Positions 17,432 through 35,191 of a stretch of DNA of 39,925 nt are shown here, piece after piece. The position numbers were made by a program, and so were the translations under genes. The notes below the pieces were generated by a model that ran no database searches, was not told the DNA's origin, and saw nothing but the letters and a program-made list of their open reading frames with translations. Each line of letters begins with the position of its first letter. Position 1 is the stretch's first letter. The stretch spans positions 1 to 39,925 of the IMG/VR virus record IMGVR_UViG_3300037450_000154, one strand, 5' to 3'. The DNA is from a virus.

Positions 17432-18203
17432 CGACGCAGGCACAGACGACACACGAGTTGTAACTCCAGACACCCTCGAAGCGGCTGACATCCCAGCAAC
17501 CGACGGAGGGCTCCTTGAGATCGAAGTCTTCAAGTCGGACGGCACATGGACCAAGCCTGCGGGGTGCAAGCTGGTAGAAGTGATCTGCCTTGGCGACGGA
17601 GGCGGAGGCGCGGGAGTGAGTGTCGGGTCCGACCCGCAATTCAAGGTAGGCGGCGCCGGAGGTGGAGGCGGGGGAGCATACGCGCTCTTCGACGCGGACG
17701 ACTTGTCCGCCACAGAGCCCGTAACTGTCGGCCAAGGAGGCGCGGCCGGCGCGGCCGGAGACAACGCCGGCAGCACCGGTGACTCAACTACATTTAACGG
17801 CTTTACGGGGACATACTTCTGCGCCGCCACTGCCGGAGGCGGGGGAGGGGTTGCGTCAGCGAACAACATCGGAGCCCCAGGTGCCGGCGGGAACGGAAGC
17901 GTGGGATCTGGCAGTCTGATCAATAACATATACACGACTTTCCGAGGTTCTCCTGGAGGGGGCGGATACGTTGCGTCCGGACAGTTGAGAGGAAGTGATG
18001 GAGGCGGCACGCCTTTTGGAGGCATGAACGCAGCGCATGGGGCTCCCGCCATACTCGACCACGGCGGATGGGTCGGGGGAGACGGCAGGGACTACGGGGT
18101 TGGCGGCGGCGGCGCTGTTGTTAAAGACCCGACATCCCCTCCTCAAACCAAAGTGGGTGTGTCCGGTCACCGCGGGTATTGCATAGTAAAATCCTATGGC
18201 TAA
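17346..18203 (+). CDS. Glycine-rich tail-tip adhesin, copy 3 (285 aa)
   Basis: Third tandem paralogue, 285 aa, starting with an ATGA overlap and overlapping the next gene by 8 nt. It begins IARDIAAWISASETAKGPVE, has SDGTWTKPAGCKLVEVICLG about residues 65-84, then glycine-rich runs (GGGGAGVSVG, GGAGGGGGGAYALF) and ends YCIVKSYG. The attachment part is closer to copy 1 at the DNA level than to copy 2. Like the others it should be a surface-exposed receptor-binding tip. Whether all three are displayed together or compete for one site cannot be seen. Confidence 0.75.
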   Translation: MTIARDIAAWISASETAKGPVELATQAEVDAGTDDTRVVTPDTLEAADIPATDGGLLEIEVFKSDGTWTKPAGCKLVEVICLGDGGGGAGVSVGSDPQFKVGGAGGGGGGAYALFDADDLSATEPVTVGQGGAAGAAGDNAGSTGDSTTFNGFTGTYFCAATAGGGGGVASANNIGAPGAGGNGSVGSGSLINNIYTTFRGSPGGGGYVASGQLRGSDGGGTPFGGMNAAHGAPAILDHGGWVGGDGRDYGVGGGGAVVKDPTSPPQTKVGVSGHRGYCIVKSYG

Positions 18204-20883
18204 TCCCTATTACAACTTCACGGACTCCTTCGTAGCCAACACGAAGGTACGCTCCGACGACATGAACCAGGAGCTGGACGGCATCACGGCCGGCTTTGAT
18301 TTGCTGCCCGGCGTGGGAGATGCTGTAACGCGAGGCGTTACGTACCTCGGCATCGAGAGCGGCTCCGGGAACACATACACCGTCACCATGCCTGACACGC
18401 GCACCGCGTACGCGGAAGGCGATCGCGTAGCGTTCCGGGCTACACATAACAACACTGGTTCTGCGGTCATTAATATCGACACGATCGGTGCCGTAACGGC
18501 CGTGCGCACAGACGATACTGCATTAGAGTCGGGTGATATACTCCAGGACGTATACTACGAGTTTATCTACGATAGCGTATCTTCTCACTTCCAGATGCTG
18601 AATATGCCTGGCAGTTGGATGAACGATATGGACAACCGAGTGGACTGGGCGGAGGAGTGGGCGATCAACCCAGAAGACAGCTTAGTGTCTACTTCAGCAG
18701 GCGGTAACGGGGTTAGTGACTACTCTGCTTTACATCATGCCACCAAAGCAGCAGCGAGCGATGCCTCTGCCGCTGCGACATATGACCTGTTTGACGACCG
18801 ATATCTGGGGGCCTTCGCGGCAGACCCAACACTGGACAATGACGGAGACGCACTGCTGACCGGCGCGCAGTACTTCAATACAGGGTCGAATCAGAACAGA
18901 ATATACAACGGAGCAAGCTGGCAGAATACCGGCGGCATGAATGCGCTGGTAGATGACACCAACCCGTATCTTGGCGGGCATCTCTTCACGAACGGATTCG
19001 AATTGAATCTGACCGGGGACGTGAACGGGAACTTCGTGTTCACCGGACAGCCCACTGTCAAAGCGACCGGAGGGTCTTTCATTGTTGCTCAAGCCATAGA
19101 CGTGGCGCACGACGCCGCGTTCCAAGGGCACCTAACCAAAGATAGCTCTGGCAATTCTGTAGGATTCTTTGGCTCTATACCGGGAGATGCTAACAGCCAG
19201 ATGGCGGCGTATACATGGGACACGGGAGCGGGACCTGCCGCGTGGAACAGAGTGTTTGGCGCGACTGAGGACGCGCTGGTGCTTCAGCTGACAAACACAG
19301 ACATCACTTACGACGGTGCATCTTTGATGCGGAACCTGGTGGAGGACCTGAGTCCTCAAGCAGGGGCCTCGATAGATATGAACGGCAAGTACATCAAGTT
19401 CGATGATAACACCGGCATCAATGATCATCTAAACAACGAACAGCTGATCTTCCAGGAGGTGACCACTCCGACCAACTTCTTCGAGATGACGCAGGCCGCG
19501 ACAACGAACCCTCCCATTTTGGGAGTGGCCGGCGACGACACCAACATCGACATGAACCTAGTGCCGAAAGGCACAGGGATCGTGCTGGTCCATGAGCTGC
19601 AGGTGGGACAGTGGTCGGGCAACTCGGACTACTCGGGGCTCTATCATGCCGACGGGGACGCCAACAACTACCTGCTGCTGTCTCAAGGCACCAGCACCTT
19701 CATAAGCGGCGCCATATCTACAAGCAACATTCACCTACGTCCAGGGGCGAACAGCAGCGCCATGGCGCTTTCGGTAAACATCGACGGCACACTGCAGCAC
19801 AAGGCTGAGTTATATGACGTGTTTACTGCAGAAGATCAAGTCCGAGAGAACATGTTCCACAACACACAGTTCAAGCTATGGCAGCGGCACGGCGGCAATT
19901 CCAAAACCAGCTGGACGCACGGAGAGTGGATCGCGGATCTGTGGCAGGCACTGGAGGTAGGGGCGTGCGTCCTGGACTCACAGTATACGAGTTCGAACCC
20001 AGTCATATCTGGCAGCGGGGCGCTCTACACCAAGACGCGTACGTCCGACGGGACCCTCAACAGTACGGACCACGTGGGGGTTCAATACCGGATCGAAGGT
20101 AACGAGTACTCGAAGTGTCACTTGCAAGAGTGCACCCTCTCGTATTGGATATACACCAACGTCGCGGGATATTACAGCGTGAGCATCACCATGCAGGGCG
20201 CTCCGCCGGCGTACAGCTACGTGCACGAAGTGAACGTCCCGGCGCTCACATGGACGAAGGTTGAGTTCCAATTCACCCCCGGAGGCACTGGCACTTGGTA
20301 CCAAGGGGAGAACTCAGAGGGCATGCGTGTGCGCTGGACATGGCGCGCAGGGAGCACTCTGCGGACGAGCAACAAAGACACCTGGACATCCGGGAACTAC
20401 TACGCCGGCAACAACCAGACACACACCTGGGGATCTAGCACGAGCCACTATGTCTACTTAGCTAGCCCGAAACTCGAAGTCGGCAGCTACGCAACGCTTT
20501 GCCGGAACGAGAGCATGGCGGAAACGTTAGCGTACGCCCAGAGGTTCTACGAGAAGAGCTACGACCCTTTAACAGCGCCAGGGAACACCACCACTGCTGG
20601 CAACGACTTCCTGTATTTAACGGGGATCGCCAGCGCGGCGCACGCCAGCGGGGTATTCACTAAATACAAGGTGTCTAAGTACCGAAGCCCGGACGTGACA
20701 GTGTGGGCCTCCGGCACCGGCACCTCGGGCAAGGTTCGAGACAACCAGCCCACGACCGCGGATCTCACCGCGACGGTCGACAACATAAACAAGCAGGGGC
20801 ATCGCGTTTACTGCGCGCAAGTAGCGTCGAAGACAACGGTAAACAACACGTGGCATTGGGCCGCGGAGGCAGGTATTGTCTGA
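18196..20883 (+). CDS. Tail fibre protein B with carbohydrate-binding-like C-terminus (895 aa)
   Basis: An 895-aa fibre. Its first ~240 residues parallel fibre A: FVANTKVRSDDMNQELDGIT, WAEEWAINPEDSLVST, DDRYLGAFAADPTLDNDG and LLTGAQYFNTGSNQNRIYNG. A long central strand-rich shaft follows. From about residue 555 it has the pattern of a jelly-roll carbohydrate-binding tail module (HNTQFKLWQRHG, EWIADLWQ, HVGVQYRIEGNE, LSYWIYTN, WTKVEFQFTPGG and YLASPKLEVGSYAT). The end contains AYAQRFYEKSYDP and WHWAAEAGIV. It should be a main receptor-binding fibre. No peptidase or autochaperone motif was noticed. Confidence 0.8.
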   Translation: MANPYYNFTDSFVANTKVRSDDMNQELDGITAGFDLLPGVGDAVTRGVTYLGIESGSGNTYTVTMPDTRTAYAEGDRVAFRATHNNTGSAVINIDTIGAVTAVRTDDTALESGDILQDVYYEFIYDSVSSHFQMLNMPGSWMNDMDNRVDWAEEWAINPEDSLVSTSAGGNGVSDYSALHHATKAAASDASAAATYDLFDDRYLGAFAADPTLDNDGDALLTGAQYFNTGSNQNRIYNGASWQNTGGMNALVDDTNPYLGGHLFTNGFELNLTGDVNGNFVFTGQPTVKATGGSFIVAQAIDVAHDAAFQGHLTKDSSGNSVGFFGSIPGDANSQMAAYTWDTGAGPAAWNRVFGATEDALVLQLTNTDITYDGASLMRNLVEDLSPQAGASIDMNGKYIKFDDNTGINDHLNNEQLIFQEVTTPTNFFEMTQAATTNPPILGVAGDDTNIDMNLVPKGTGIVLVHELQVGQWSGNSDYSGLYHADGDANNYLLLSQGTSTFISGAISTSNIHLRPGANSSAMALSVNIDGTLQHKAELYDVFTAEDQVRENMFHNTQFKLWQRHGGNSKTSWTHGEWIADLWQALEVGACVLDSQYTSSNPVISGSGALYTKTRTSDGTLNSTDHVGVQYRIEGNEYSKCHLQECTLSYWIYTNVAGYYSVSITMQGAPPAYSYVHEVNVPALTWTKVEFQFTPGGTGTWYQGENSEGMRVRWTWRAGSTLRTSNKDTWTSGNYYAGNNQTHTWGSSTSHYVYLASPKLEVGSYATLCRNESMAETLAYAQRFYEKSYDPLTAPGNTTTAGNDFLYLTGIASAAHASGVFTKYKVSKYRSPDVTVWASGTGTSGKVRDNQPTTADLTATVDNINKQGHRVYCAQVASKTTVNNTWHWAAEAGIV

Positions 20884-21206
20884 TGTATAAGATAATTGAC
20901 GATAAAGTAGTGCAACACATCGAGTCTACAACGTTCTTCTCGATTGAGCCCGGCGAAAGGGGATCTCACTCCGATGCGTTCGACGAATGGCTGGCGGACG
21001 GGAATGTCCCAGATCCACCAGAGATTCGCCCTTGGGAGGCCCCTCCTTCTAAAGCAGAGAGGCTGCAAGAGAGCGAGCCAGAGGCGGTCGAAGCGCTAGA
21101 GGATATCGTGGATCTTCTTGTTTCCAAAGGGATTCTTACAGAGGAGGAGCTGCCTGCGAAGGTCAAGAACGTCCTCAACAATCGGAAGGCTATCCGTGAG
21201 GAATAA
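20883..21206 (+). CDS. Tail-fibre-associated / chaperone-like small protein (107 aa)
   Basis: A 107-aa acidic protein whose ATG overlaps the fibre B stop by one base (TGATG). The segment FDEWLADGNVPDPPE (about residues 33-47) resembles a motif seen in small phage proteins encoded after tail fibres, with pattern Y/F-x-x-W-L-A-x-G-N-x-P. Those proteins are often called tail fibre assembly proteins. The second half is a charged helix (EAVEALEDIVDLLVSKG) ending KAIREE. The role in fibre assembly is inferred from position and this motif. Confidence 0.6.
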   Translation: MYKIIDDKVVQHIESTTFFSIEPGERGSHSDAFDEWLADGNVPDPPEIRPWEAPPSKAERLQESEPEAVEALEDIVDLLVSKGILTEEELPAKVKNVLNNRKAIREE

Positions 21207-21259
21207 CATTATGCTATACTCAAACGGACCCGGAATTTAACTTCAGGAGCAACAACTAC

Positions 21260-22291
21260 ATGGGCATGCTTGGTAAAGAAGCAGACAAAGACACCTCTCA
21301 GATCACCGCAGATGCGCCAGAGTCCATGGTAGGGCAGACCGGCGGCAGCGCTCCTGGGCTTGACGACTACTATGTGAAGAACCCTGGCGCTGCCCAGACG
21401 GAATCGATGGCGCCCACCGACGTGAAGAGCGCCACGGCCACCAGCTACGACGCCACCATGGGGGAAGTGGACCCCGCCCAGACATCAATGAATCTCGCCA
21501 ATGACTACATGGGCATGGATGGGCCCGTACAGCAGCGCGCGGAGCAGGAAGGGCGCAGGTTCTCTGCCAAGTCCGGCCTGCTGAACAGCTCGATTGCTGC
21601 AGGCAACATCGCCGGCGCGGTCGCCGACAGAGTCAACCCTCTCGCGCAGACTGACGCAGGACTCTACGGAGACCAAAGGCTTACGAATCAAAGGGCTACC
21701 AACGAAGCATCTCAATTCAACGCGGCCAACGAAACGGACGTGAGCAAGGCGAACGCCGCTGAAGCGAACCAAACTCTCCGGACGGACACAGCGGTAGAGG
21801 GCGACATCAGAATGTCGAACACTCGCGCTGAGAATGACATGATGAGCACTGTTCTCGGAGCGAATGCCAATATAAATCAACAGGCAATGGCGGATCTGGG
21901 GGCAATGCAGCGCACGCTTCTCGATATCGATGCCCGGAAGTACGCCACTGACTCAGCTAAAGGGGCGCAGGTCTACTCTGCCACCCTTGCTGCTATTGGA
22001 GATCTCTACAACAACCCGAACCTGAGCCCGGATGCCATCAAAAAGGCCTCGGAGCACCTTATGACGAATGCGAGAAGCACTCTGAATTTCTCTATGGGTA
22101 TGGATGCCCTGGACCTGGGAGGCACTGGAGACGGCACAGTGAGCCACACCGGCATGACGCCAAACGTACAGCCCGCTCCCGCTCCCGCGCCGGCGCCGGC
22201 CCCATCACAGCAGATGGTAGATGGACAGCACGATGCAAGCCTGCCGGGATACACTCCCCCGTACGCACGGAATTACTTTTGGTCTGACTGA
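21260..22291 (+). CDS. Internal virion / ejection protein candidate (343 aa)
   Basis: A 343-aa, Ala-, Asn- and Asp-rich, largely helical protein at the start of the ejection module. AGGAG (21245-21249) lies 10 bases before ATG 21260. The centre (about residues 95-245) is a long helical region with many Ala and Asn (SAKSGLLNSSIAAGNIAGAV, NAAEANQTLRTDTAVEGD). Residues 302-314 are an Ala-Pro repeat (APAPAPAPAPAPS) that would act as a rigid spacer. It lacks a signal peptide. Composition and place after the fibre genes match podophage internal head proteins. No sequence family is recognised with confidence. Confidence 0.65.
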   Translation: MGMLGKEADKDTSQITADAPESMVGQTGGSAPGLDDYYVKNPGAAQTESMAPTDVKSATATSYDATMGEVDPAQTSMNLANDYMGMDGPVQQRAEQEGRRFSAKSGLLNSSIAAGNIAGAVADRVNPLAQTDAGLYGDQRLTNQRATNEASQFNAANETDVSKANAAEANQTLRTDTAVEGDIRMSNTRAENDMMSTVLGANANINQQAMADLGAMQRTLLDIDARKYATDSAKGAQVYSATLAAIGDLYNNPNLSPDAIKKASEHLMTNARSTLNFSMGMDALDLGGTGDGTVSHTGMTPNVQPAPAPAPAPAPSQQMVDGQHDASLPGYTPPYARNYFWSD

Positions 22292-22303
22292 GGAGAAGTC
22301 GTG

Positions 22304-22729
22304 ATGCTAAGAGCCGCCAACCCCGGAGACACGGACGCGATCATAGAATTAGCACGGAAGCAAATGGAGAGATATCCGCTACGCCCGGATAAATACAAGT
22401 TAAAAGAACTGGTTAGAGAATCAATCAGTTCAGCAAAGCATTTCGCCCATGTCGTGGACGTGGGCGGCAGGGTTCAAGGGGTGCTGATTGCCTTGACATC
22501 GGACAACTTGTGGGCCCAGCGGCAAAACTGTAATATAGTCATCTGGGTATCTGAGGTACCGGGATATGGAGACAGACTCCTCCGGACGTTCCGAAGGTGG
22601 GTGGAGCCGCGCAGAGGCATCAAAGTTTCAGGCATGTGCCCAGATCTGGAGATCGATCCAAGGGCGCTGAAGTTGGCAGACCGAATAGGATTCAAGCGCC
22701 ATGGCGGCGCGTATCTACTCTATAATTGA
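22304..22729 (+). CDS. GNAT-family acetyltransferase-like protein (141 aa)
   Basis: A 141-aa protein with a GNAT-like layout. The ATG at 22304 is eight bases after AGGAG; a GTG at 22301 is in frame and also possible. The N-terminal helix (NPGDTDAIIELARKQME), strand VVDVGGRVQGVLIAL, the strand-loop-helix IVIWVSEVPGYGDRLLRTFR (acetyl-CoA pyrophosphate-loop-like G-x-G, around residues 82-101) and the end strand RIGFKRHGGAYLLYN follow GNAT order. It would transfer an acyl group from acyl-CoA to an amine on an unknown target. It lies between two virion-type genes, which suggests modification of a virion protein or ejection with the DNA. Function is inferred. Confidence 0.7.
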   Translation: MLRAANPGDTDAIIELARKQMERYPLRPDKYKLKELVRESISSAKHFAHVVDVGGRVQGVLIALTSDNLWAQRQNCNIVIWVSEVPGYGDRLLRTFRRWVEPRRGIKVSGMCPDLEIDPRALKLADRIGFKRHGGAYLLYN

Positions 22730-22738
22730 GGGAACGAC

Positions 22739-23518
22739 ATGGGATTGTTTAAGAGTATCAAGAAGATTGGCAAGAAGATCCTGAAGGGAGTCAAGAAGGG
22801 ATTCAAGAAAGTCAAGAAGTTTGTCGGGAAAATCGCAGGCAGCAAATGGGGCAAGATCCTCATGATCGCTGGAGCGGTGGTCCTCGGAGGTATTGCCGCG
22901 TACGGCGCATATGCCGCGGTGGCAGGCGCAGGGGCATCGGCAGCTCAAGCCGGTACGACCCTCTCATTCATGGGCAAGTTCGCAGCCGGCGCCAAAGGCG
23001 CAATGGGCGCGCTGGCCAGTCCGGTAGCAACAGCCAAAGCAGGGATGGGCGCACTGACAGCAGCCCCCGCGGGCGCAGGCGTGACAGTTGGCGCAGCCCC
23101 TGGAGCATTCGGTGGCGCCGCAGGCGTAGCCGCTCCGACAGCTTTGCCGGCAGCAGGAACAGGTGTAGCAGCAGGCGGAGCAGGTACCGGTGCTGGTGCA
23201 GGCGGCGGGTTCCTCTCGAAAGTAGGTACCGGGGCACTGAATTTCGCCAAGTCAGCAGGCGGCGCGCAGATCATATCCGGCGCAGTCAGCGGCATGGCCA
23301 AGGCCAAGGCAGCCGAGGAAGAAGCCAAGGCAGCCGAGAAGGTGCGCACTTGGCAGAGCGACGCCTGGGAGAAATCAGGCAGCCCGACAGGCGGTGGCGG
23401 TGGCGGCAGGGTGCAGTCCCGGCCAGGAGTCGACACAGCAGGAGCGTTGAGACGCGCGCAGCAACAGTACACGCCGGGATCTCGCGAAGATCTTGCGGCA
23501 TATGCGAGGGGATTCTAA
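22739..23518 (+). CDS. Cationic-helix, glycine-zipper membrane protein; pore-forming ejection candidate (259 aa)
   Basis: A 259-aa protein from ATG 22739 with GAGGGA five bases upstream. Residues 1-39 contain 15 lysines alternating with hydrophobics (FKSIKKIGKKILKG, GFKKVKKFVGKI), like a membrane-active antimicrobial peptide. Residues 40-68 are hydrophobic and glycine/alanine-rich (ILMIAGAVVLGGIAAYGAYA), a likely membrane segment. Residues 70-185 are low-complexity Gly/Ala sequence with GxxxG spacing. The C-terminal part is helical and charged (AKAAEEEAKAAEKVRTWQSD), then polyglycine and a basic end. It could line or anchor a DNA-ejection channel; a lysis role is an alternative. No family is recognised. 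Confidence 0.7.
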   Translation: MGLFKSIKKIGKKILKGVKKGFKKVKKFVGKIAGSKWGKILMIAGAVVLGGIAAYGAYAAVAGAGASAAQAGTTLSFMGKFAAGAKGAMGALASPVATAKAGMGALTAAPAGAGVTVGAAPGAFGGAAGVAAPTALPAAGTGVAAGGAGTGAGAGGGFLSKVGTGALNFAKSAGGAQIISGAVSGMAKAKAAEEEAKAAEKVRTWQSDAWEKSGSPTGGGGGGRVQSRPGVDTAGALRRAQQQYTPGSREDLAAYARGF

Positions 23519-24114
23519 TGGGAGCACTACAGAACGCATCGGGAGTGGACCTGGCAACTGCAGACACCACTTCGGCAGAAGTTTCAAACAACCCACAGAT
23601 TGATGCAGGCCCCGCTACCACGCAGGGCGGCGTGAATGCTTCCCGGCAGGCTGCCGACAGCACCACACAGGCCGGGGCCGAAGAAGAGGCGGCTACCGAC
23701 GAAGAGCAGGCCGCATATGACGAGGCAATGGCTGCCGCAGAAACAGTTCTGTATGAGAACGACAAAACCTCTGAGGCGCTGAGCGACTTGCTGCGTCCAG
23801 AGCAGAAGGTTGACGGCGCAGTGCAGGCCTCCCTTATGGCGATCACTCAGATCGATCAGCAGATCGATATGCCGGAAGAGGTCATAGCTCAGGTGTCCAT
23901 GGACATCACTGACATGATCATCGACATGGCAGAGGAAGGCCGCGGCATGCAGTTCTCCGAGCAGGAGACGCAGGCAGTGTGGGGTTCCGTATGGGAAGGC
24001 ATCATGGAAACATACGGCGTTGACGAAGACGAATACAACTCCTTCACTGGTGGTATGTCGGACGAAGACATCTCCGCGCAGGAGCAGGCACACAAAGGTT
24101 TCTTGGGAGAGTAA
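23518..24114 (+). CDS. Acidic internal protein candidate (198 aa)
   Basis: A 198-aa strongly acidic protein. The ATG at 23518 overlaps the preceding TAA by one base (TAATG). The N-terminal third is disordered (GVDLATADTTSAEVSNN), followed by helices EEEAATDEEQAAYDEAM and ETVLYENDKTSEALSDLLRP. The second half is helical with Met- and Ile-rich patterns (DITDMIIDMAEEGRG). Its charge is opposite to the cationic N-terminus of the neighbouring protein encoded just upstream, so the two could pair during storage in the head. That pairing is inference; no family is recognised. Confidence 0.6.
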   Translation: MGALQNASGVDLATADTTSAEVSNNPQIDAGPATTQGGVNASRQAADSTTQAGAEEEAATDEEQAAYDEAMAAAETVLYENDKTSEALSDLLRPEQKVDGAVQASLMAITQIDQQIDMPEEVIAQVSMDITDMIIDMAEEGRGMQFSEQETQAVWGSVWEGIMETYGVDEDEYNSFTGGMSDEDISAQEQAHKGFLGE

Positions 24115-24116
24115 TC

Positions 24117-24779
24117 ATGGGAGCACTATGGGGCGCCCTCGGTGGCGCAGCGGATGCAGCCAAAGAGGTTTATGGCAAGAAGCAGGACGCCGAGATAGCA
24201 GAGGCGAAAGCAACTGCGGACGAGGCACGCGCCATGCGGCTCGAGAGGATGCGGCAGAAGTACAGGACTTCGGAGGCCGGGGCAGAGCGTGAGTTCAAGA
24301 CAGGCGAACGCGAGTCAGAGCAGGAGTTCGAAGCCGGCGAGAGCAAGCTCGAGCGCGGGCATAAGTCCTTCCAGAAGGAAGCCGACCGCCAGCAGGACGC
24401 CGTGCAGACCGACAAAGAAATCGAAGGTCGGCAGAACGTAGCCGACACACGCGCAGAAGCGACAATGGCTGCCAGCGGCAAGACCAAAGCAGGCTTCAAG
24501 AGCGTCAAGATCAAAAGCAGCGTTATGACCGAAGATGGATTCGAGGAGAAGGAAGTTCCGATCGTGTTCCAGGAAAGCTCTGGGCGATACTTTCAGGACA
24601 ATGGCGGGCAGCTCGTCCCATACCAGCTTGAACAGCAACTCGAAGGCCCTCAGCTGCTGCTCTTCCAGCACGCAGGCAAGTGGCCCAAAGAGGCGCTCAA
24701 AGCGTACATGAAGACAGCGGAAGGCAAGCGCCTCGGAATCCCTGCATGGTATGAGTTGACCTATGGCAAACAGTCCTAA
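24117..24779 (+). CDS. Coiled-coil internal protein candidate (220 aa)
   Basis: A 220-aa protein starting two bases after the previous stop. The first residues MGALWGALGGAADAA form a small Gly/Ala-rich hydrophobic helix. Residues 20-115 are a long, highly charged helix rich in Glu, Arg and Lys (EIAEAKATADEARAMRLERM, ESEQEFEAGESKLERGHKSF) likely to form a coiled coil. The C-terminal 100 residues are a compact alpha/beta region with FKSVKIKSSVM and FQESSGRYFQDNGGQLVPY. It overlaps the 1440-aa gene by 17 nt. A role as an internal virion protein is inferred from its neighbours. Confidence 0.6.
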   Translation: MGALWGALGGAADAAKEVYGKKQDAEIAEAKATADEARAMRLERMRQKYRTSEAGAEREFKTGERESEQEFEAGESKLERGHKSFQKEADRQQDAVQTDKEIEGRQNVADTRAEATMAASGKTKAGFKSVKIKSSVMTEDGFEEKEVPIVFQESSGRYFQDNGGQLVPYQLEQQLEGPQLLLFQHAGKWPKEALKAYMKTAEGKRLGIPAWYELTYGKQS

Positions 24780-27700
24780 CTTCGACGAGATCTTTGGAGC
24801 ATATTACGACGACGAGGAGGAGACTCCCGCCGATCCGTACACTCCTGGCACCCCGTCCATTAATAATGAACAACCGGAAGCTGTGGACAACAGCATGCCG
24901 GATTTCGATCGTCTGTTCGCTGAGTCAGAGAACCCCACTGAAGTAGAAGAAACCCCTGAACTGGACGAAGAGGACGAACCCACCCTTCTGGACCACGGCA
25001 AGAACTTCGTAAAAGGGTTTGCCGAGGCGGGCGGCATGATCGCCGGCGCGGGCGAATATGTGCAAAGACAAGTTGGCAGCGACCTGCTTGCCGAATTGTA
25101 TGGCATCGGTCGCAAAGCCGCACAGGCAAGCTCCGAAGAGTGGGTGCAGTCCATGACCCCTGCAGCGCAGAGGGACCTGAAGAAAAAGTATGCATCCACA
25201 GGCGAGGACGCAGCCTGGAAAGATCTCGACTCCGTGATGTTCACGATAATCGGTTCGGCGCCATCCACTATTGCAGGCATGGGGCCCTCTGTAGTTGCCG
25301 CGAGGGCAGCCTTCGGTGCAGCCATAAAGCAGGGGGCCACAAAAGCCATAGCAGCGAAGGAGGCAGCGAAAGCCGCCGGAACCGCGGGCGCTATGGCAGA
25401 AGGCGGCATGGGTGCCGGCGGAGTGGCGGCAGACATTACCTCTCAGCTGGAGCAGATGAGCAGTGAAGAACTCCAAGGGATGGAAGCCTATCAGGATCTG
25501 CAGAAGAAGTACCCTGATTTAGAGGAGAGCGATCTTCGGTCGCTCCTTATCGCAAGCGCTACCCGGTACACCGCCATGGCCGCGGGCCTTGTCACTGCAG
25601 CCGTAGGCAAATTAGGCGGCAAGATGGAGGCCAAAGCATTCACCGGCGGGGGCAGCCGTATCAAAGCGGGCGCTGCAGGTGGTGCCGCAGAGACAGTTCA
25701 AGAAGTACCGCAGTCTGTCTCCGAGACAATGGCCACGAACGTTGGCCTAGAAAAGCCCTTGATGGAAGGCACGCTGGAATCGGGACTAGCAGGAGCCGTT
25801 GGCGGCGCCGGAACGGGTACCGGGATGGGCGTTATCGCAGGGCCCGGGGACGCGGCTCCCGAAAGCTCAGATCTGCTGAGCGAACTGGATCAGAACGAGA
25901 AAGACACAGAGCAGATGGGCCAGGACATCGACCAGCTCAAGGCGATGAACGGCGCAGAATTAGAGGAGTACCAACAGCAAGTCCGTGAGGATGTGGCAAG
26001 CAGAGGAGGCGACCAGCTTGAACAAGAGCTGGCCGCTGCTACCGCTGGCCGTGATGCTGGCCAGGTACTCGATTCAGAAGTAGAGAACCTTACTCGTCTA
26101 TGGAACCAGCGGCAGGCTGCTGACGAGGAAGCCCGTTACTTCGAGGATCAGCAGAAGGATGACGCTGCCCGCGAAAAGATACAGAGTGAGGCTGCAGAAA
26201 AATATGAAGCAGGACAAAAGCAAATCGCCGCCGATAAGCAGGCCGCTGACGACAAGGCGAGACTCGCTGAGAAAGTGGAGTCTGATCTTGCCCGGACGAA
26301 GAGAGTGCAGGACGCTCAAGCAACTCGAACAGAGGAGAAGAAAGCGGAGACCGTTAAAAAGCAGTCCGCCTCTGATAAAGCGGACGCGCAGCTACGGAAA
26401 CTACGAAAGCGTCGGCAGGAGCTGGGCCTCGAACCGAAGGGAGACCTGGAGGGCCAATCACCCTATCCGTCGGCACCGACGGTGGAAGCTTTTAAGGGGA
26501 AGAAACCGAAAAGCAATGCAATGGCGGAAGCACTTGCAAAAGCTACTCAGACCGCTGCGGATAAGTCAGCGGCTGAGGCAGAGTTAGGTACGGCGGGAGC
26601 TGCATCGAAAACTGAGGAGGTGATCCAAGGCAAGCCCCGAAAGGGAGGACGCAGTTCCCGCATCTTATTCCGTAAAGGCGAAGAGGGCGCAAGCAAGCGA
26701 CTCGTCGACGAGATCAAAACCAAGGAAGGTTTCACTGTCAACAATGACACAGGGCAACCAGTGACAAAAGGGTTCTCTGTGGGCCAGGGCATGGAAGAAG
26801 TTATCGAAGGCGAAGTCAGCGAGGCACAGCTTGACGCGTTCCGCGCGCAGCATGCAGAAGCACTGGCCGATCCGGCGAACGTTCTGGGTGCCTGGTACAA
26901 CAAGAAGGACGGCAAGACGTACCTGGATGTGTCCACGGTATTCAATACCCGCGAAGAAGCTATGGCGGCAGGCATCACCAACAAGGAGCTTGCCATCTAT
27001 GACTTGGAGAGTGGGCAGGAGATCAGCCTGGAATCCAAGGGCAACAAGTACTTCGACAAGAAAGCGCTGCAAGAACCCCATTCGCAGATCTCCCCTCAAG
27101 AATTCCTTGACATGGCGGAGACTCTGAAGTTCCCAGATCAGCAGAAACAGGGCGATCTGAGAACACTGATCGACAAGGACAGCACTCCGCTTAATTCCTT
27201 GCCGGTGCTCACTGTCAAGGACGGCAAGGTCGTCGGACACGAAGGGCGCCACCGTGCAATGGAGTTGATGTCTCGTGGAGTGAAGAGCATGCCCGTTCGC
27301 ATCATCGGCGGCTCGAGCGAAACACTGACAAGCCAGGACGGCAAGCGGCAGATGAGCACTCCGAAAGGGCAGGAAGGTCGCGACTTCGCCAAGTTCTTCG
27401 CCAAGATCACCAAAGGCCTGGCCGGCAAATCCACTACTGGCAAGGAATACGCCCCGGTCATAGGCGCAGTAGCACAGAATCTGTCGAATCCTGTGTCCGA
27501 TCAGGGCAGGTTTGCTGCAGTTTATTCCAAATTCAGGGGGAATTTCGATGACCATATCGCTTTTTCGATCCCTGGGTTCAAAGAAGTACAGGTTGCAGTA
27601 GGCGCTGCGATCGCTAAGGTTTATGGAAAAGGGGCCAACATTCTCGACATCGGCGCGTCGGAAGGATCTTTCGTCAAAGCCATAACGTCCACTAGGCAGG

Positions 27701-29085
27701 CGCACACCATTGCGCTGGACCCAAGTGAAGCCATGGAGGCAACCTTCAACGCCACCCCTGTTGAAGGTTCCGAGTACTCACGCACCGCTTTTGGCACCCG
27801 GGAGCAGGAGGGAGCACTAGCTTGGCCAGAGGATGACGATGGCCCCGAAACCACATACTTCGACCCACAAGGAGAGAAGTTCGATGTAGTACACGAGGCT
27901 ATGGTGTTTCAGTTCGTGTCGTCTGACCGTATAACGCAGATTAACCGGGTTAAGCAGCTCTTAAAAGCAGGCGGCGTGGCAATCTTCGAACAGAAAGTGT
28001 TCACCAACGCTAAAGAAGCGAACGAAACCAAGAAGAATGAGTACAAACGCCAATACTTCGAAGAGAAGGACATGGACCAGAAGGCCACGGAAATCCTCGA
28101 AGGCATGGAAGAGAACATGGTTCACCAGGAAAACCTGGAACAGGAACTGAAGAACAACTTTGCGCACGTCGTCCAGTTCTGGGACAGCGGGGAGTTCAAA
28201 GGATATGTGGCGTCTGACAGCAAGGCTGCCGCGGACACTCTGTCTTCAGCAATAGGTGATACTTCTTCTGAATTTTCCACGACCGCAACACCTCGGAAAG
28301 TTGAGTCTCCTCAGAAGGTTAGAGAGAAGATACAGCTGCGTAGGGTTGACAATAAACCCCGTAAGGTTGACAATCAGGCAGCCGGGTTCGTCGTAAGGGA
28401 TCTGAACGACAGGCTGCCCGGGCTGAAGGTCAACCTCCTGGAGTCTCCGTACAACCTGCCGGACACGCTTTTTGATAAGGTATCCAATGAGTTCGGAGCC
28501 ATGGGGATGGAAGCCCGCGGCATGATCGACTCGAAAACCGGAGAGATCTATGTGTTCTCCGACAATCACAGCTCGATAGAGGACCTGGTAACCACCGTCA
28601 TGCACGAAGGCGTGGGCCATAAAGGCCTCCGGGTGCTGTTCAACGAAGAGCAGAAGAACGAACTGCTGGATTCTGTATTCGCGAATGGAGAACGCGCGGC
28701 AATGAACCGGATCGCCAAGTCATACGGCCTGGACGGCAACGTCGTCAAGGACCAGCGTTTGATTGCAGATGAGTATATTGCTGAAATGGCTGAGAAAAAC
28801 ATCGATGCGCCTATAATGCAGCGCGTCATAGACAGCATCCGCCAGGTGCTGAAGAGCCTCGGCCTGCTGCAGACCTGGACAGACTCAGACATCAAGGCGC
28901 TGCTGCGCCGGACCCGGTCTGCCTTGAAAGATGGCAAGCCTTTAAGTAAAATCAAACTTCGCACGGAAGTAGAGGTCGAGGAAACAGGGGAGGTTGTGGC
29001 CGTTGAGCAGACTGCAAGTGTCGCGCTCCGGCAACTCGACAAGCGGATCGAAGTGTGTAAGAAACTGAAGGAATGTGTCGGATGA
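24763..29085 (+). CDS. Giant multidomain (polyvalent-type) ejected protein with methyltransferase and zincin-like domains (1440 aa)
   Basis: Seen in order: acidic N-terminus (1-75); Ala/Gly-rich hydrophobic region (85-370) like internal virion proteins; charged coiled coil (375-560); an alpha/beta module with GAWYNKKDGKTYLDVS (about 632-751); a ParB/sulfiredoxin-like segment with VVGHEGRHRA (823-832) then MPVRIIGG; a class I SAM-methyltransferase core with motif I ILDIGASEG (960-968), acidic loop IALDPSE (983-989) and FDVVHEAMVF (1040-1049); and a zincin-like motif HEGVGHKGLR (1281-1290) with possible third ligand in DEYIAEMAE (1336-1344). No N/DPPY motif is seen, so a DNA N6-adenine methyltransferase is unlikely. 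Family knowledge: polyvalent phage proteins, like P1 DarB, travel with the DNA. Inferred role: protecting incoming DNA or altering host targets. Confidence 0.75.
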   Translation: MANSPNFDEIFGAYYDDEEETPADPYTPGTPSINNEQPEAVDNSMPDFDRLFAESENPTEVEETPELDEEDEPTLLDHGKNFVKGFAEAGGMIAGAGEYVQRQVGSDLLAELYGIGRKAAQASSEEWVQSMTPAAQRDLKKKYASTGEDAAWKDLDSVMFTIIGSAPSTIAGMGPSVVAARAAFGAAIKQGATKAIAAKEAAKAAGTAGAMAEGGMGAGGVAADITSQLEQMSSEELQGMEAYQDLQKKYPDLEESDLRSLLIASATRYTAMAAGLVTAAVGKLGGKMEAKAFTGGGSRIKAGAAGGAAETVQEVPQSVSETMATNVGLEKPLMEGTLESGLAGAVGGAGTGTGMGVIAGPGDAAPESSDLLSELDQNEKDTEQMGQDIDQLKAMNGAELEEYQQQVREDVASRGGDQLEQELAAATAGRDAGQVLDSEVENLTRLWNQRQAADEEARYFEDQQKDDAAREKIQSEAAEKYEAGQKQIAADKQAADDKARLAEKVESDLARTKRVQDAQATRTEEKKAETVKKQSASDKADAQLRKLRKRRQELGLEPKGDLEGQSPYPSAPTVEAFKGKKPKSNAMAEALAKATQTAADKSAAEAELGTAGAASKTEEVIQGKPRKGGRSSRILFRKGEEGASKRLVDEIKTKEGFTVNNDTGQPVTKGFSVGQGMEEVIEGEVSEAQLDAFRAQHAEALADPANVLGAWYNKKDGKTYLDVSTVFNTREEAMAAGITNKELAIYDLESGQEISLESKGNKYFDKKALQEPHSQISPQEFLDMAETLKFPDQQKQGDLRTLIDKDSTPLNSLPVLTVKDGKVVGHEGRHRAMELMSRGVKSMPVRIIGGSSETLTSQDGKRQMSTPKGQEGRDFAKFFAKITKGLAGKSTTGKEYAPVIGAVAQNLSNPVSDQGRFAAVYSKFRGNFDDHIAFSIPGFKEVQVAVGAAIAKVYGKGANILDIGASEGSFVKAITSTRQAHTIALDPSEAMEATFNATPVEGSEYSRTAFGTREQEGALAWPEDDDGPETTYFDPQGEKFDVVHEAMVFQFVSSDRITQINRVKQLLKAGGVAIFEQKVFTNAKEANETKKNEYKRQYFEEKDMDQKATEILEGMEENMVHQENLEQELKNNFAHVVQFWDSGEFKGYVASDSKAAADTLSSAIGDTSSEFSTTATPRKVESPQKVREKIQLRRVDNKPRKVDNQAAGFVVRDLNDRLPGLKVNLLESPYNLPDTLFDKVSNEFGAMGMEARGMIDSKTGEIYVFSDNHSSIEDLVTTVMHEGVGHKGLRVLFNEEQKNELLDSVFANGERAAMNRIAKSYGLDGNVVKDQRLIADEYIAEMAEKNIDAPIMQRVIDSIRQVLKSLGLLQTWTDSDIKALLRRTRSALKDGKPLSKIKLRTEVEVEETGEVVAVEQTASVALRQLDKRIEVCKKLKECVG

Positions 29086-29432
29086 GAAAGATCTCCCAGA
29101 GCGAACTGGCCAGGTTGCATGCACGCGGTGACGTCCGTGGCACGCCGAAGAGTCTGCCACGTAAAGCTAAAGACGACACAGCAGAAAAAGCTAAGCCGGT
29201 CACCGACAAGGGCATGGCCTCTATGGCTGCCACCCAGCAGTTCCTGGCAGAGCAGTCCGCTGCACTGACGGAGACATTATCTATCAATTCCAAGAAAATT
29301 GAGGACTTTCGTGACAACATTGATACTGTCGTCAAGGCGGCAGGCAAGAGAGTAGCTTACGAATTTGAAGTCAAACGTGGCAAGAACAAGCTGATCGAGA
29401 AGATCATAGCCAAACCTCTGGAAGGAGACTGA
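29082..29432 (+). CDS. Basic helical protein of unknown function (116 aa)
   Basis: A 116-aa basic protein. ATG 29082 overlaps the stop of the giant gene (ATGA) and has AAGGA nine bases upstream; an in-frame ATG at 29073 has no room for a ribosome-binding site. The N-terminus is basic (KISQSELARLHARGDVRGTP), the centre helical and Ala/Gln-rich (QQFLAEQSAALTETLSINSK) and the C-terminus strand-like with FEVKRGKNKLIEKIIAKP. This end could be a small folded domain. It follows a giant gene and precedes a 95-aa gene by four bases. Function is unknown. Confidence 0.6.
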   Translation: MRKISQSELARLHARGDVRGTPKSLPRKAKDDTAEKAKPVTDKGMASMAATQQFLAEQSAALTETLSINSKKIEDFRDNIDTVVKAAGKRVAYEFEVKRGKNKLIEKIIAKPLEGD

Positions 29433-29435
29433 TCC

Positions 29436-29723
29436 ATGGTATACAAAGCGCGTGAACTCCGCCGTCTGTGGGAGCTGGTAGTCTACGTCGGCGACCCTGA
29501 TGCAGAGAAACCCAAGACGAAGAAGGAAACAGTTGTTGCGTTCAACCCTACGGATGCTGTCCGGCGTGCGGCTCCTCGCAAACTGGCAGTCCCTGCCGTT
29601 GCGCTGTGTTTCGTGACATGGCCGGAAGAGGCCGATGGCCCTGTATATGAGATCTACTCCACTGCAGGCCCCACCAACAAGAAGGTGAAACCCACTATCG
29701 ATCCGGAAGGCTGGGATTTCTAA
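29436..29723 (+). CDS. Protein of unknown function (95 aa)
   Basis: A 95-aa protein from ATG 29436 with AAGGAGA upstream. It has a helix-strand N-terminus (KARELRRLWELVVYVGDPDA), a lysine-rich turn, then hydrophobic strands (VPAVALCFVTWPEEADG and VYEIYSTAGP). It ends DPEGWDF, immediately before the GTG of the next gene. No membrane span is convincing. No family is recognised; it belongs to the operon of late structural genes. Confidence 0.55.
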   Translation: MVYKARELRRLWELVVYVGDPDAEKPKTKKETVVAFNPTDAVRRAAPRKLAVPAVALCFVTWPEEADGPVYEIYSTAGPTNKKVKPTIDPEGWDF

Positions 29724-32030
29724 GTGACAGTTCCAACACCAAGTCACAACCTTACTCGGCAGGAGGACTTCGAAGGTACTCCTGGCGGCACCTTTGGCAC
29801 CACGGGCGGTGGCCCGGGCGCAGCTGCGCAGGCCGGGTTACACTACGAAGCAACCCAATGCGCGGCCCGTCGTGTCGGTAGCACTGGCACTGACTTTGGT
29901 TTCGACTACGATCACAGTGATATAGGCGCAGTCGACATGACCGCGGCTGCCACCCGGGTGTGGATGAGCAAGGTGATGACAGCGCTGTCAGCTGTCTGCT
30001 CCAGCACGCAATGCGGCATCGGCGATGCTGACGGAAGCATGTACCTGTTCGAGGTAGGGGACGACGGCACAATGGGAGACGAAGCCGACTTTCAGATACC
30101 TGCGAAAGGCGGATACATTATCACGCCGATCGAAGCGCGGGTGAATGCTTGGCACAATCTAACCCGAGAATCAGGCGCAGATATCACAATAGCAGACGTT
30201 GTTCAGCTCACGCATAACGTGTCGGCAACTACTGGTGCCGGTACTTCTCAAGCCATGGACTCTATTGACTATACTACGGACGGCCTTTTCCTGGTCGCAG
30301 GAACAAGTACCGATCCTGACTGTTCGTTCCAGGACTTTGTCGACGCTGACGAAGGTTCGGGGCTGACAGGTGCTGGTCGTGCGGGGATCTGGGCTTCCGG
30401 TGCAGGTGGGTTTACGGCATATCTGCACAATGTAGTTGGGCGCACCGATGCGGGCACTTCGACGCTGACAGAGTTCACTGATGCTGGCACCTCGGTTACT
30501 TTCCCTGGAGGGTATGTGAGCGACGGCCGCAACGGTTTAGAGTTTGACTTAGCCACCAGCGGCACGACTGTCATCATGAGCGACGGCCGTATCGCCGGGA
30601 GTGATCGGCGTTTTGGTGGGCGATCGAAGATCAAACGGTATTTCGATACAGAGCTAGACGTCATCGGCGGCACCACCGACACCATAACCATCGTCGGGCA
30701 CGGCCTGTACACCGGAGATACGGTCATCTATTCGGCAGAGGGCGGCACGGAAGACATTGGCCCGGACGCAACCACAGGCGAAGCAGAGTTCAATAACGCC
30801 ACTGCCGGCGTGATAGGCACCGGGGCATACTGGGGCGTCGTCAAAGTTGATGACGACACCATCCAGCTCGCGACTACTCCAGCCCTCGCATATGCAGGCA
30901 CTGGCCGTACCATAACGCCCAGCACCACAGGCAACGGAGAGAATCACAGTTTAGAGCGGGCTCCGGATACTCGCCCGAACTTGCTATTTACCGGAACGAC
31001 AGGCACTGCAGATCTAACCCGTATGACTCTGAGCAAGTGCCGGGTGATCACGATGACGTCGGCAGTAACTATGACGGGCGGCGTTATCTCCCAGTGCCGG
31101 CAGCTTATTCTCGGTGACGGAACCCTGGATACCTGCATCATCGCACAGCCCACGACCTCGATCGGGGAGGCGTTCCTGCAGGCGATCCATGGGGAGGACC
31201 TTGATTTAATAGACAACAGTACCTTCACCTCTGGCGGGCTTGGGCACGCTATCGAGATCACAACCGACGGCACGGTAGACGAGGACATCGCATCACTCGT
31301 TGGAGTGGGCTTCAGTGGGTACTGGGAAGGGGACGACGACAACACAGGCGGCGTGGCCTTCGATCCGGACGAGACAGGCAACCCTGGCGACGTCAATCTG
31401 TCAACTGACGCCATCACGATCACCGGCCACCCGTTCACTGACGGAGATCCTGTCTACTATTCTGATGAAGGAGGCACGGCAATTACCGGGCTGACCGACC
31501 AGGGGCTGTACTACGTCAACTCGATTGACGCCAACACTATCTCCCTGCACGACTCAGAAACTGGAGCAACATCAGACACTAACAGGGCGAACATGACAGC
31601 CGCCTCGACTGATGCAGAGCACAAACTGTACAGTGCAAACGCTGCAATCTTCAACGATACTGGCACTGCCATCACTGTCAACGTGACCGGCGGGGACAGC
31701 CCGAGCGTGCGCAACAGCGCCGGCTCGACGACAACCGTCAACAATACGGTGACGCTGACCGTGCAAGTTAATGATTCTGATGGAGACCCTGTCAACCAGG
31801 CCAAAGTGCGCATCGAGAATACCAGCACTGGCGCCCAGATTGCGCAAGGAACTACAAACGCATCAGGCACTTACGTGAACTCTTCTTACAACTACGCTGG
31901 GGATCTGGGCGTCACAACGAAGGTCAGACTCAAGGGCTATAAAAACTTTCGCACTGGTGGTACTATTGAGTCTACCGGTTTAACTGTCGGCGTCACGCTC
32001 GCCGATGACAAAATAGTGGATTTACCTTAA
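29724..32030 (+). CDS. Large beta-rich structural protein with repeated modules (768 aa)
   Basis: A 768-aa strand-rich protein rich in Thr, Gly and Asp, starting at GTG 29724 directly after the preceding stop. The first 200 residues (QEDFEGTPGGTFGTTGG) look like a lectin- or jelly-roll-type region. Two copies of one module are visible: about residues 312-415 (TITIVGHGLYTGDTVIYS then EGGT) and 558-640 (AITITGHPFTDGDPVYYS then EGGT), each ending with a D-x-x-TI-x-L strand. Between them is a beta-helix-like stretch. Residues 685-750 form an Ig-like or carboxypeptidase-regulatory-like domain. The end, RLKGYKNFR and IVDLP, matches the end of the 1035-aa protein. Probably virion surface or fibre-like; exact role unknown. 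Confidence 0.65.
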   Translation: MTVPTPSHNLTRQEDFEGTPGGTFGTTGGGPGAAAQAGLHYEATQCAARRVGSTGTDFGFDYDHSDIGAVDMTAAATRVWMSKVMTALSAVCSSTQCGIGDADGSMYLFEVGDDGTMGDEADFQIPAKGGYIITPIEARVNAWHNLTRESGADITIADVVQLTHNVSATTGAGTSQAMDSIDYTTDGLFLVAGTSTDPDCSFQDFVDADEGSGLTGAGRAGIWASGAGGFTAYLHNVVGRTDAGTSTLTEFTDAGTSVTFPGGYVSDGRNGLEFDLATSGTTVIMSDGRIAGSDRRFGGRSKIKRYFDTELDVIGGTTDTITIVGHGLYTGDTVIYSAEGGTEDIGPDATTGEAEFNNATAGVIGTGAYWGVVKVDDDTIQLATTPALAYAGTGRTITPSTTGNGENHSLERAPDTRPNLLFTGTTGTADLTRMTLSKCRVITMTSAVTMTGGVISQCRQLILGDGTLDTCIIAQPTTSIGEAFLQAIHGEDLDLIDNSTFTSGGLGHAIEITTDGTVDEDIASLVGVGFSGYWEGDDDNTGGVAFDPDETGNPGDVNLSTDAITITGHPFTDGDPVYYSDEGGTAITGLTDQGLYYVNSIDANTISLHDSETGATSDTNRANMTAASTDAEHKLYSANAAIFNDTGTAITVNVTGGDSPSVRNSAGSTTTVNNTVTLTVQVNDSDGDPVNQAKVRIENTSTGAQIAQGTTNASGTYVNSSYNYAGDLGVTTKVRLKGYKNFRTGGTIESTGLTVGVTLADDKIVDLP

Positions 32031-32046
32031 TTAGGGAGCTTTAATT

Positions 32047-35000
32047 ATGCCAATTTCAGACGACTGGGATCTCGATTACGCCAACACAGTCCTTAGCCAC
32101 ATCGACGGCGTGTTGAGCTACGACACGGGTGCCGGTCGGCAAGCCGCGGTAGGCGAATACATTTACGGCGCCACCTCTGGTGCGACCGCGAAGGTTCTCT
32201 CCGTGACGGGCAACACCGCTTCCGGTACGCTCACCCTTACCAACGTCAACGGCCTCTTCGAAGACAACGAACTCCTTGAAGTCCTCTCCGAAGTCGGGTT
32301 TGAGAACGTCACTGACGCTGTCCCCACCGGGTTCGCAGTTGGAGACGTCATCACTGACCAGACCTCCGGTTCCATGGATGTCAAGGTTATCGAATACAAC
32401 ACTGGCGGACTTGGCACAGGTATTGCATACGGCATCAGCTTCGCTTCCTTCGCAGACACCGAGGCACTGGACATCACTGGTGGCCAGGCCGACGTTGCAG
32501 ACGCTGACACAGTCACCGCGAACAACAACAACGACAGTGCGCTTACCACTACTTTGGTTGCCGGCACACTCGCAGTACCGGGCACTGCCCAGACCAACGA
32601 CTCGGTCATCGTTCATTATGATGCCGGCACAGTCGCGATTCCGGAACAGGCCATTCTCCTTGACGCTACCAGCACCGCACAGGGCTTGGTAGAAAAAGTC
32701 TGGGGCGTAACAGCCACCGGCTCCATCCGCGTTGTCGACTACAACTCGACTGGCGGCTCCTGGGGCGACGGCAATAACCTTGAAGTTGACCAGGTCATCG
32801 GCTACAACAACCAGGTCGCCGGTCAGGTGTTCACCGTAGGCGACGTTATCGTCGGGGCAACCTCTGGCGCAACCGGTCGTGTATTGGCCGACACCGGCAC
32901 CCAGCTGATCCTGGCTGACGAGTCCGGCACATGGACCACTACAGAAGATCTGGAAGTTGGCGGCACCAAGATCGCAGATGCCAACGGCACGAACGACACC
33001 CTCGTATGCGCGGTTGTCAACATCCCTGATGGCGTCCGCATCGAGCAGAAAGCCAAAGGTGTCGGCGGCGGCGCAGGCCAGGGCGGCATATATGATGCTG
33101 GCGACTCGCTGAACATCGTCCGCAAGTTCAACAGTCTGTACACCTTCTCGCAGGATACCTTCGATGAGCTGGACCAGATGGACGACGACGAAGCACTTGA
33201 TGCGTCCGTCAAAGGCGGCGCGTACAGCTTGGTCTTCGGCTGGAGCTTCTCCGAAACGACTGAAGTTGATTCGACCCGGTTCCTCCGTCAAGGTGGTCTG
33301 GCCGATACTTCTGGCGCAAACGTTTGGGCCAACCCCCAAACCGTGGGCGTACTCAACAAAATCACTGACGAAGCGTACTTCTACAGTGCCTCGCAGCCCT
33401 ACCACATGCCTCAGCTCTACATCGAGCAGGATCAAAACAAGATCGAGCCTTGGTGGTTGGAAGGGCACATTGACGTACTCGTCAAGGTCCGTACCCGTAC
33501 CAATCCCAGCTACATCGCGCCGACGACTCCTGGCCTTGGCCAGTTGATCCCCGGCGGTGACCCGCAGGTCGACGGCGCTTACGCTGTTTACGCCCGCGAG
33601 TATCACGTGTCCACTTATGATACGACACAGTTCGCAGCGGCAGCCGGCGGTGTTAACACTGTTGCCCTGGGTACTGCAGATGACACAGCCTCTGATCGTA
33701 ACCCCAACGGCACGCACACCATGGACTACACTGCTGGTTCGGGTGCTACCTTGGTGGTCGGCGAAGAGTTCACTACCGTCGCTGGCGGCAACGACCAGAA
33801 AGTTGGTGTAGTTGTTTCCGACGATGGCGGCGCAGGCGCTACCGGTACTCTCGAATACGTGCTGAAGTCTGGCACCAACTTCGTGAACACAGACACATGT
33901 GTTGCTGAAGTGTCGGGCAAAACCTTTACCGCGCCAACTCCCACTACTGTTGTGGCGGGATACGTCGACGACATCGCCTTCCCGGTTGTGGACATCGAGT
34001 GCGACTCCACCTCTTCGACGATTGCGAGTGGCCCCTTCTACCCGGGCGAGCCTGTAACCCAGGCCTCCACCGGCGCGACTGGCCGCGTTGTTCTGGCGAA
34101 CGAAACCACTGACATCCTGTATCTGGAAACTACCACTGGTACGTTCTCCGGTCTGAACGTCATCACTGGCGACAACAGTGGCGCCACCTGGACCCCGACG
34201 ACTACGGCTACTTACAACACCATCAGCGCATTCAACGGCGACCTGAACAACGGCGACGGCGCAGTTCCTTTCACAGGCGCTGTCTCTGGTGACCTGACTG
34301 GCGCATCTCCTGAAACGGTGCTGAACATTTACCAGTATCAGAAGTACCTGTCCCGTCACGAGGAAGAAACCTACACCTTCAATGGTCCTGGTACTGCTGA
34401 CCTCGGCACGGTTGGCCGCTTCTACCGTAAGCTGGCTGACGCCTTCGCGGAAATCAAGCCTGGTTCGCCTGTCGCAACCTTCACCGGTTCGTTGACACTG
34501 GCACAGGGCTGGTTCCTTGATAGTGGATACATCGACGCTGGCGACATCCGTTCGTTCTCGGTCATCGATAACAACGGCGTGTCCCGCACACCGCCGAACC
34601 TGCAGGCCCTCACCGTGTCTGGTGTGGCTAACCTCTGGCGCGTAGCGGTCTACCGTTCCACGGGTGCTGGTCTGACGACCATCCTCCGGAACGAGTTCGA
34701 CGTACTGGCCCCCGGCTCCAGCCGTAACCAGTCTGCCGACACCATCATCAGGGTCGGAGCGAGCACCAGGACTGTGAGTCCTCTGCCCGCCGACGTTCCT
34801 GACTCCGGCGTGCTTCGAGTCCTTGACCCGAACGGCACCGGCAACTACCTGAGGTTCCCTTACTCCAGCGTGGATCGTACTCTTAACGACTTCACCTTGG
34901 CATCGGGCACCATCGGCGCCGTTACCGGTTCGCAGGATCTGGTCGAAAACGACAACGTGCATGTTTGCCTCATCGAGGAAACTGCGACTGGCGCCTCGGT

Positions 35001-35154: not shown

Positions 35155-35191
35155 TAGTAAGGTAGGTCTTCCTTAGCAGGAGACTTACAGC

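Follow-up and report, generated by a model that had tools for sequence, protein, structure and literature searches.

The 1440-aa protein P0001, encoded by a 39,925-base viral record from IMG/VR (the window, i.e. the whole stretch of DNA analyzed), joins a virion-type N-terminal region to a ParB/sulfiredoxin-fold domain, a CmoA-like methyltransferase and a zincin-like metallopeptidase. The explanation that best fits the whole, to which we assign a probability of roughly 0.6, is that P0001 is a polyvalent protein that would be packaged and ejected, with a SAM-using CmoA-like domain as cargo directed against host defence or at reprogramming the host. Polyvalent proteins are believed to count among the earliest tools at the disposal of a phage in the cell, and to our knowledge substrates have been assigned to only a few of their enzymes. 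The recurrent CmoA-like clade described here stays separate from the CmoA/CmoX pathway of DNA modification that was published in 2025, and it offers a defined, testable candidate for a counter-defence chemistry that would be both new and early.

Domain organization of P0001

The window encodes terminase, portal, major capsid and tail-nozzle-like proteins, and its kin are marine Vibrio phages, 1.232.O and D279 (38% identity for the portal, 54-56% for the capsid protein and 32% for the 722-aa gene at position 12045). A preliminary description of this DNA had noted three motifs, and all three were found in the one open reading frame where it placed them: HEGRHRA at residues 826-832, ILDIGASEG at 960-968 and HEGVGH at 1281-1286. 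The motifs are not chance occurrences, since each falls in a stretch conserved across many independent viral proteins (76 loci for the ParB-like domain, 62 for the methyltransferase and, for the zincin, 149 relatives, 80 of them kept) and since two of the three domains, the ParB-like domain and the methyltransferase, have confident AlphaFold models. The three modules first recognized thus stand, and a fourth conserved domain, at residues 647-765, had been overlooked (Table 1). A scan of viral contigs with the whole of P0001 returned a single weak relative, as each domain has an evolutionary history of its own; domain-wise alignments did recover relatives.

Table 1. Features of the P0001 gene and its neighbours, in window coordinates
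Feature	Position	Strand	Basis
Upstream neighbour, 422-aa ORF	22846..24114	+	adjoins the polyvalent gene also in sister phage G001 (48%)
Neighbour, 220 aa, overlapping the start of the polyvalent gene	24117..24779	+	equal position in G001
P0001 polyvalent protein gene, 1440 aa	24763..29085	+	one uninterrupted 1440-codon frame
N-terminal ~600 aa, presumed virion/ejection frame	24763..26562	+	PHROG matches, G001 identity, composition
Unnamed small domain, residues 647-765, GAWYNKKDGKTYLD	26701..27057	+	conserved in relatives
ParB/sulfiredoxin-fold domain, residues 767-850 (HEGRHRA, 27238-27258)	27061..27312	+	conservation, AlphaFold, PDB matches
CmoA-like methyltransferase domain, residues 866-1185	27358..28317	+	SAM motif ILDIGASEG, 960-968; motif IV HEAM, 1044-1047
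C-terminal HExxxH zincin-like metallopeptidase, residues 1197-1400	28351..28962	+	27-sequence alignment, Vibrio phage giants

The presence of these unrelated domains in one phage polypeptide bears out the reading of P0001 as a polyvalent protein, and a Pfam scan found no curated polyvalent or LPD domain in it. Like the known polyvalent proteins (P1 DarB/DdrB, N4 virion RNAP), P0001 has several unrelated enzymes behind a virion-type N-terminus, among them ParB-like and HEXXXH zincin domains, and its gene lies in a late or structural slot. It differs in having a CmoA-like methyltransferase where those proteins have an SNF2 helicase and an N6-adenine methylase; no helicase match was found in P0001. 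The earlier suggestion that the arrangement is undescribed holds for the order of the domains, which was found at no other locus, but not for the fusion of enzymes to a virion-type N-terminus, which was already described by Iyer et al. 2017 (PMC5512222). CmoA is absent from the main text of that paper, and in the open-access literature we found no paper that links CmoA with polyvalent proteins. A CmoA-like methyltransferase clade within polyvalent proteins appears to be undescribed so far; multi-enzyme proteins of this kind are known.

A conserved frame with exchanged enzymes

The nearest relative of the window is sister phage G001 (39,879 bases; capsid protein 80-81% identical), whose protein in the corresponding slot is 1743 aa long. 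It shares with P0001 the N-terminal region (36% identity over P0001 residues 229-585), the ParB-like domain (44%), the zincin (45%) and the 647-765 domain. It also carries an inorganic pyrophosphatase, InPase (PF18823, 1e-45), which is a polyvalent domain, and protein BLAST of this one protein gave no match to the CmoA-like domain. The frame, consisting of the N-terminal ~600 residues and the C-terminal HExxxH peptidase, stays constant, and sister phages differ in the enzymes inserted between its two parts; modules have been swapped inside an otherwise conserved virion-type protein. The gene that follows in G001 (21032-26065; L241:1032-6065) is a 1677-aa ORF with another polyvalent domain, LPD39, and the same place in the window, after P0001, holds ORFs of 119, 95, 768, 1035 and 508 aa.

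The N-terminal region and its gene slot

P0001 is Ala/Gly-rich from about residue 150 to 360 and charged from 360 to 600. Its N-terminal half had been called hydrophobic and coiled-coil; a coiled coil is probable at 360-600, but the region is not strongly hydrophobic. Hydropathy never rises above 1.5 in any 19-residue window, and a transmembrane N-terminus was rejected on this ground. PHROG profiles matched residues 76-601 (DarB-like, E 1e-20; N4 virion RNAP, E 1e-12), on low-complexity helical sequence whose composition may partly explain the matches. The P22-type ejection families phrog_2534 and phrog_770 did not match P0001 and have no detectable sequence similarity to it.

The place of P0001 corresponds to a slot in Vibrio phages D279, D274 and 1.232.O. 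D279 has P22-type ejection proteins there, matching phrog_2534 ('released from the phage upon host infection', 5e-24) and phrog_770 ('DNA transfer protein', 4e-127), in keeping with the ejection-type position first proposed; the slot precedes genes of 136, 524 and 1067 aa, with a few small extra genes interspersed. Elsewhere it is filled by giant proteins, of 3162 aa in D274 and 3292 aa in 1.232.O, the latter with LPD38, helicase and methylase matches, and the zincin region is common to P0001 and both giants. Downstream of P0001 the synteny is one of gene size and order only, because phmmer detects no homology between window genes 29073-36718 and their Vibrio phage counterparts. Judged by gene position only, P0001 most likely resides in the phage head and is expelled together with the DNA.

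The small domain and the ParB/sulfiredoxin-fold domain

Relatives of the 647-765 domain occur at L001, L013-L015, L081 and L242-L253 and in some actinophages. A first five-sequence alignment was too variable for searching and two mixed sets covering 647-870 misplaced the small domain; modelled without relatives, the domain gave a low-confidence structure from which no fold was identified.

For residues 767-850, AlphaFold returned a model with a pLDDT of about 93, whose top PDB matches nearly all belong to the ParB/sulfiredoxin superfamily (Srx, Noc, ParB, Osa and the free serine kinase SerK). Foldseek E is 0.02 and Z does not exceed 7.6, which are modest scores, but the list is coherent; together, model and matches support a ParB/Srx fold, as the ParB-like assignment in the preliminary description had predicted. 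Pfam gave no match over residues 634-887 at E up to 10, and among the ParB-like relatives one matches ParB_N and three match PFIN. A 1545-aa viral protein at L161:4429-9063 has two tandem ParB-like domains, both of which match that of P0001.

A CmoA-like methyltransferase domain

The AlphaFold model of residues 866-1190 (pLDDT 94, pTM 0.93) contains a Rossmann core, and the enzyme class proposed at the outset can be narrowed to CmoA-like. CmoA was nearest by NCBIfam, PDB sequence search and fold search alike (Foldseek 1e-11), and a profile made from the polyvalent members only matched CmoA at E 1e-8, with 99% in HHalign. The NCBIfam hit scored 25.7 bits; no ParB or zincin Pfam model was found in P0001, even at E 10. 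P0001 and CmoA (E. coli 4GEK/4IWN; phage SpCmoA, PMC12783734) share the fold over ~215 residues, the FDDHI..SIPG entry, the D-x-G-x-S SAM loop, the QF motif and lysines 165, 185 and 198. The Z score of the model against CmoA, 20.2, is tied with those against MM_2633 and the O-methyltransferases CysG/BelI, so the fold alone cannot name the reaction. CysG and BelI, which are of the 3-isopropylmalate type (9FCL, 9FCE), lie within Z 1 of CmoA and, like the perhaps small substrate considered below, theirs are small molecules; they differ in their low identity to P0001 (~17-19%) and in a His-His-Asp metal site that is theirs and is not established in P0001.

The domain had been said to have no N/DPPY motif, and motif IV indeed reads HEAM; a DNA adenine methylase of the DarB N6-adenine type was rejected for this reason. 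It is unlikely that the domain directly methylates DNA, RNA or protein, such as tRNA or the incoming DNA, to mark it against restriction or nucleases. The PHROG family matched over the domain, phrog_4752, is labelled 'tRNA methyltransferase', DarB-like polyvalent proteins protect DNA (PMC5512222), and nucleic acid could be bound by the adjacent ParB-like domain. Against these points, the PHROG label probably derives from the old name of CmoA, the lid of CmoA closes over the cofactor and blocks the site at which other methyltransferases bind RNA (PMC3663124), the N/DPPY motif is absent, and CysG/BelI, which are also close in fold, have malates as substrates (PMC11408123). Our best guess is SAM-dependent methylation of some substrate, perhaps a small one.

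Comparison with Cx-SAM synthases

A second alternative, quite improbable in our estimate, is that the domain, as a synthase of the CmoA type, would turn SAM into carboxy-SAM (Cx-SAM) on entry, either for nucleic-acid modification or to starve SAM-dependent restriction and BREX. The nearest solved structures and profiles are those of CmoA, and PMC12783734 asks whether phage CmoA might deplete SAM, but the P0001 domain falls far short of the NCBIfam CmoA cut-off of 193.3 bits. In E. coli CmoA, Arg199 forms a salt bridge with the Cx-SAM carboxylate (PMC3663124). K1107-A1108 of P0001 aligns with K198-R199 of that enzyme, and P0001 thus has Ala at 199; with Glu at 203, it also lacks the Arg203 of SpCmoA, a proven phage Cx-SAM synthase that has Glu at 199 and in which we infer that Arg203 may stand in for Arg199. 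Across the 37 polyvalent members aligned, Arg199 is present in eight and Arg203 in none, while 4 of 12 standalone phage CmoA proteins have no arginine at either position and yet have a CmoX-like gene in the record; the arginine test of Cx-SAM binding is therefore not clean and is suggestive only. These four proteins (L055, L057, L059 and L068) may have a different Cx-SAM chemistry or rely on some other residue for it. D62, S66, K165, K185 and K198 (CmoA numbering) are present in all 37 polyvalent members, as is a Glu at position 131 (P0001 E1045), which is also found in three plasmid relatives; outside the polyvalent clade this position is Leu in E. coli CmoA and Ser in the standalone phage proteins.

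Phage CmoA partners CmoX, a cytosine carboxymethyltransferase (PMC12783734). When 30 viral records were searched with SpCmoX, a CmoX-like match was present in all 14 with a standalone CmoA and in none of the 16 with a polyvalent domain (Fisher 7e-9), the scanned set being one of records other than the window that may be fragments, so that absence does not amount to proof. Supply of carboxymethylcytosine by the polyvalent domain in a CmoA/CmoX pathway is disfavoured by this contrast. In a phylogenetic tree, a branch with 100/100 support parts the polyvalent and plasmid proteins from all CmoA. The P0001 domain thus lies in a sister clade of CmoA, and its chemistry is probably different, given the separate branch and the CmoX survey. 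SAM itself is probably the cofactor, because the domain has an intact SAM loop, lacks the arginine for the Cx carboxylate and carries at motif IV a conserved Glu, preceded by His. Both 'tRNA methyltransferase', as in PHROGs, and Cx-SAM synthase are poor labels for the domain.

Distribution of the CmoA-like clade

The methyltransferase was of the polyvalent form at 43 of the 62 viral loci (on 43 contigs); 42 of these lie inside ORFs of ~760-5500 aa, several of them cut by contig ends, and the remaining one breaks off where its contig stops. In three of five records checked, the polyvalent ORFs have portal, tail or endolysin genes as neighbours. The capsid protein of the window gave one marginal match among 26 other records with a CmoA-like or ParB-like domain, and the CmoA-like domain is therefore spread over only distantly related phages. 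In Maribacter phage Panino a 40% identical domain likewise lies inside a large late protein (WZE63588.1, 1829 aa), which has no BLAST match to P0001 beyond the methyltransferase domain. The Panino protein (L003:10894-16383) is annotated 'tRNA methyltransferase' and is a polyvalent-type protein, so the label misleads; such automatic labels on giant proteins are unreliable. We tentatively suggest, with less than even confidence, that many unrelated phages carry this undescribed clade as exchangeable cargo of virion-delivered proteins, where it would perform a SAM-dependent chemistry of its own on a metabolite or defence signal before phage gene expression.

Cellular relatives are standalone proteins of ~340 aa, mainly from Rhizobiales and also from Pectobacterium, Klebsiella and Streptococcus (standalone loci: L008:7944-8894, L009:8076-9089 and L254-L333). 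They are homologous to P0001 over ~873-1170, including the motif IV Glu, but are free-standing cellular genes, and the three that were aligned lack the Asp and Ser of the SAM loop. The plasmid-borne ~340-aa proteins adjoin or neighbour MFS or LysE exporters, which suggests a biosynthetic or signalling role.

The zincin-like peptidase and a model for P0001

H1281, E1282, H1286 and E1337 are invariant among 27 viral sequences, and this HEXXXH motif with its downstream Glu supports the predicted zincin-like identity. The HEXXXH set is among the polyvalent metallopeptidases described by Iyer et al. 2017 (PMC5512222), and Pfam DUF6782, a putative metallopeptidase, was found in five of the zincin relatives. 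A weak match of the region to a YopJ-type acetyltransferase (E 0.02) fell short of its cut-off and was attributed to chance. It is very improbable that P0001 serves inside the virion in a structural role only, with degenerate enzyme-like domains: internal virion proteins do resemble its N-terminal half and its slot is structural, but the SAM motif and the HExxxH and Glu set are intact and conserved among relatives.

These observations provide the basis for a model of a packaged polyvalent protein. The N-terminal ~600 residues and the peptidase would form the stable frame, and the middle would be exchangeable cargo, comprising the small 647-765 domain, a ParB/Srx-fold domain predicted to act as a nucleotide-binding or nuclease domain, and the CmoA-like methyltransferase. 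P0001 would be packaged in the head and then ejected alongside the DNA, and the peptidase, by analogy with a proposal for P1 DdrB, would probably cleave P0001 itself before, during or after entry. The methyltransferase, probably with SAM itself, would then methylate a small or otherwise non-adenine target, probably to blunt host defence or reprogramme the host at entry.

Other features of the window

An antisense open frame of 968 aa (32056-34962, minus strand) spans nearly all of the 1035-aa gene at 32047-35154 and is probably an effect of codon bias. Two tail-fibre-like genes (14214-15671 and 18196-20883) both match one N-terminal region of related phages, and the short ORFs between them, at 15673, 16516 and 17346, look mutually related. 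In G001 the fibre N-terminus is likewise present in two copies.
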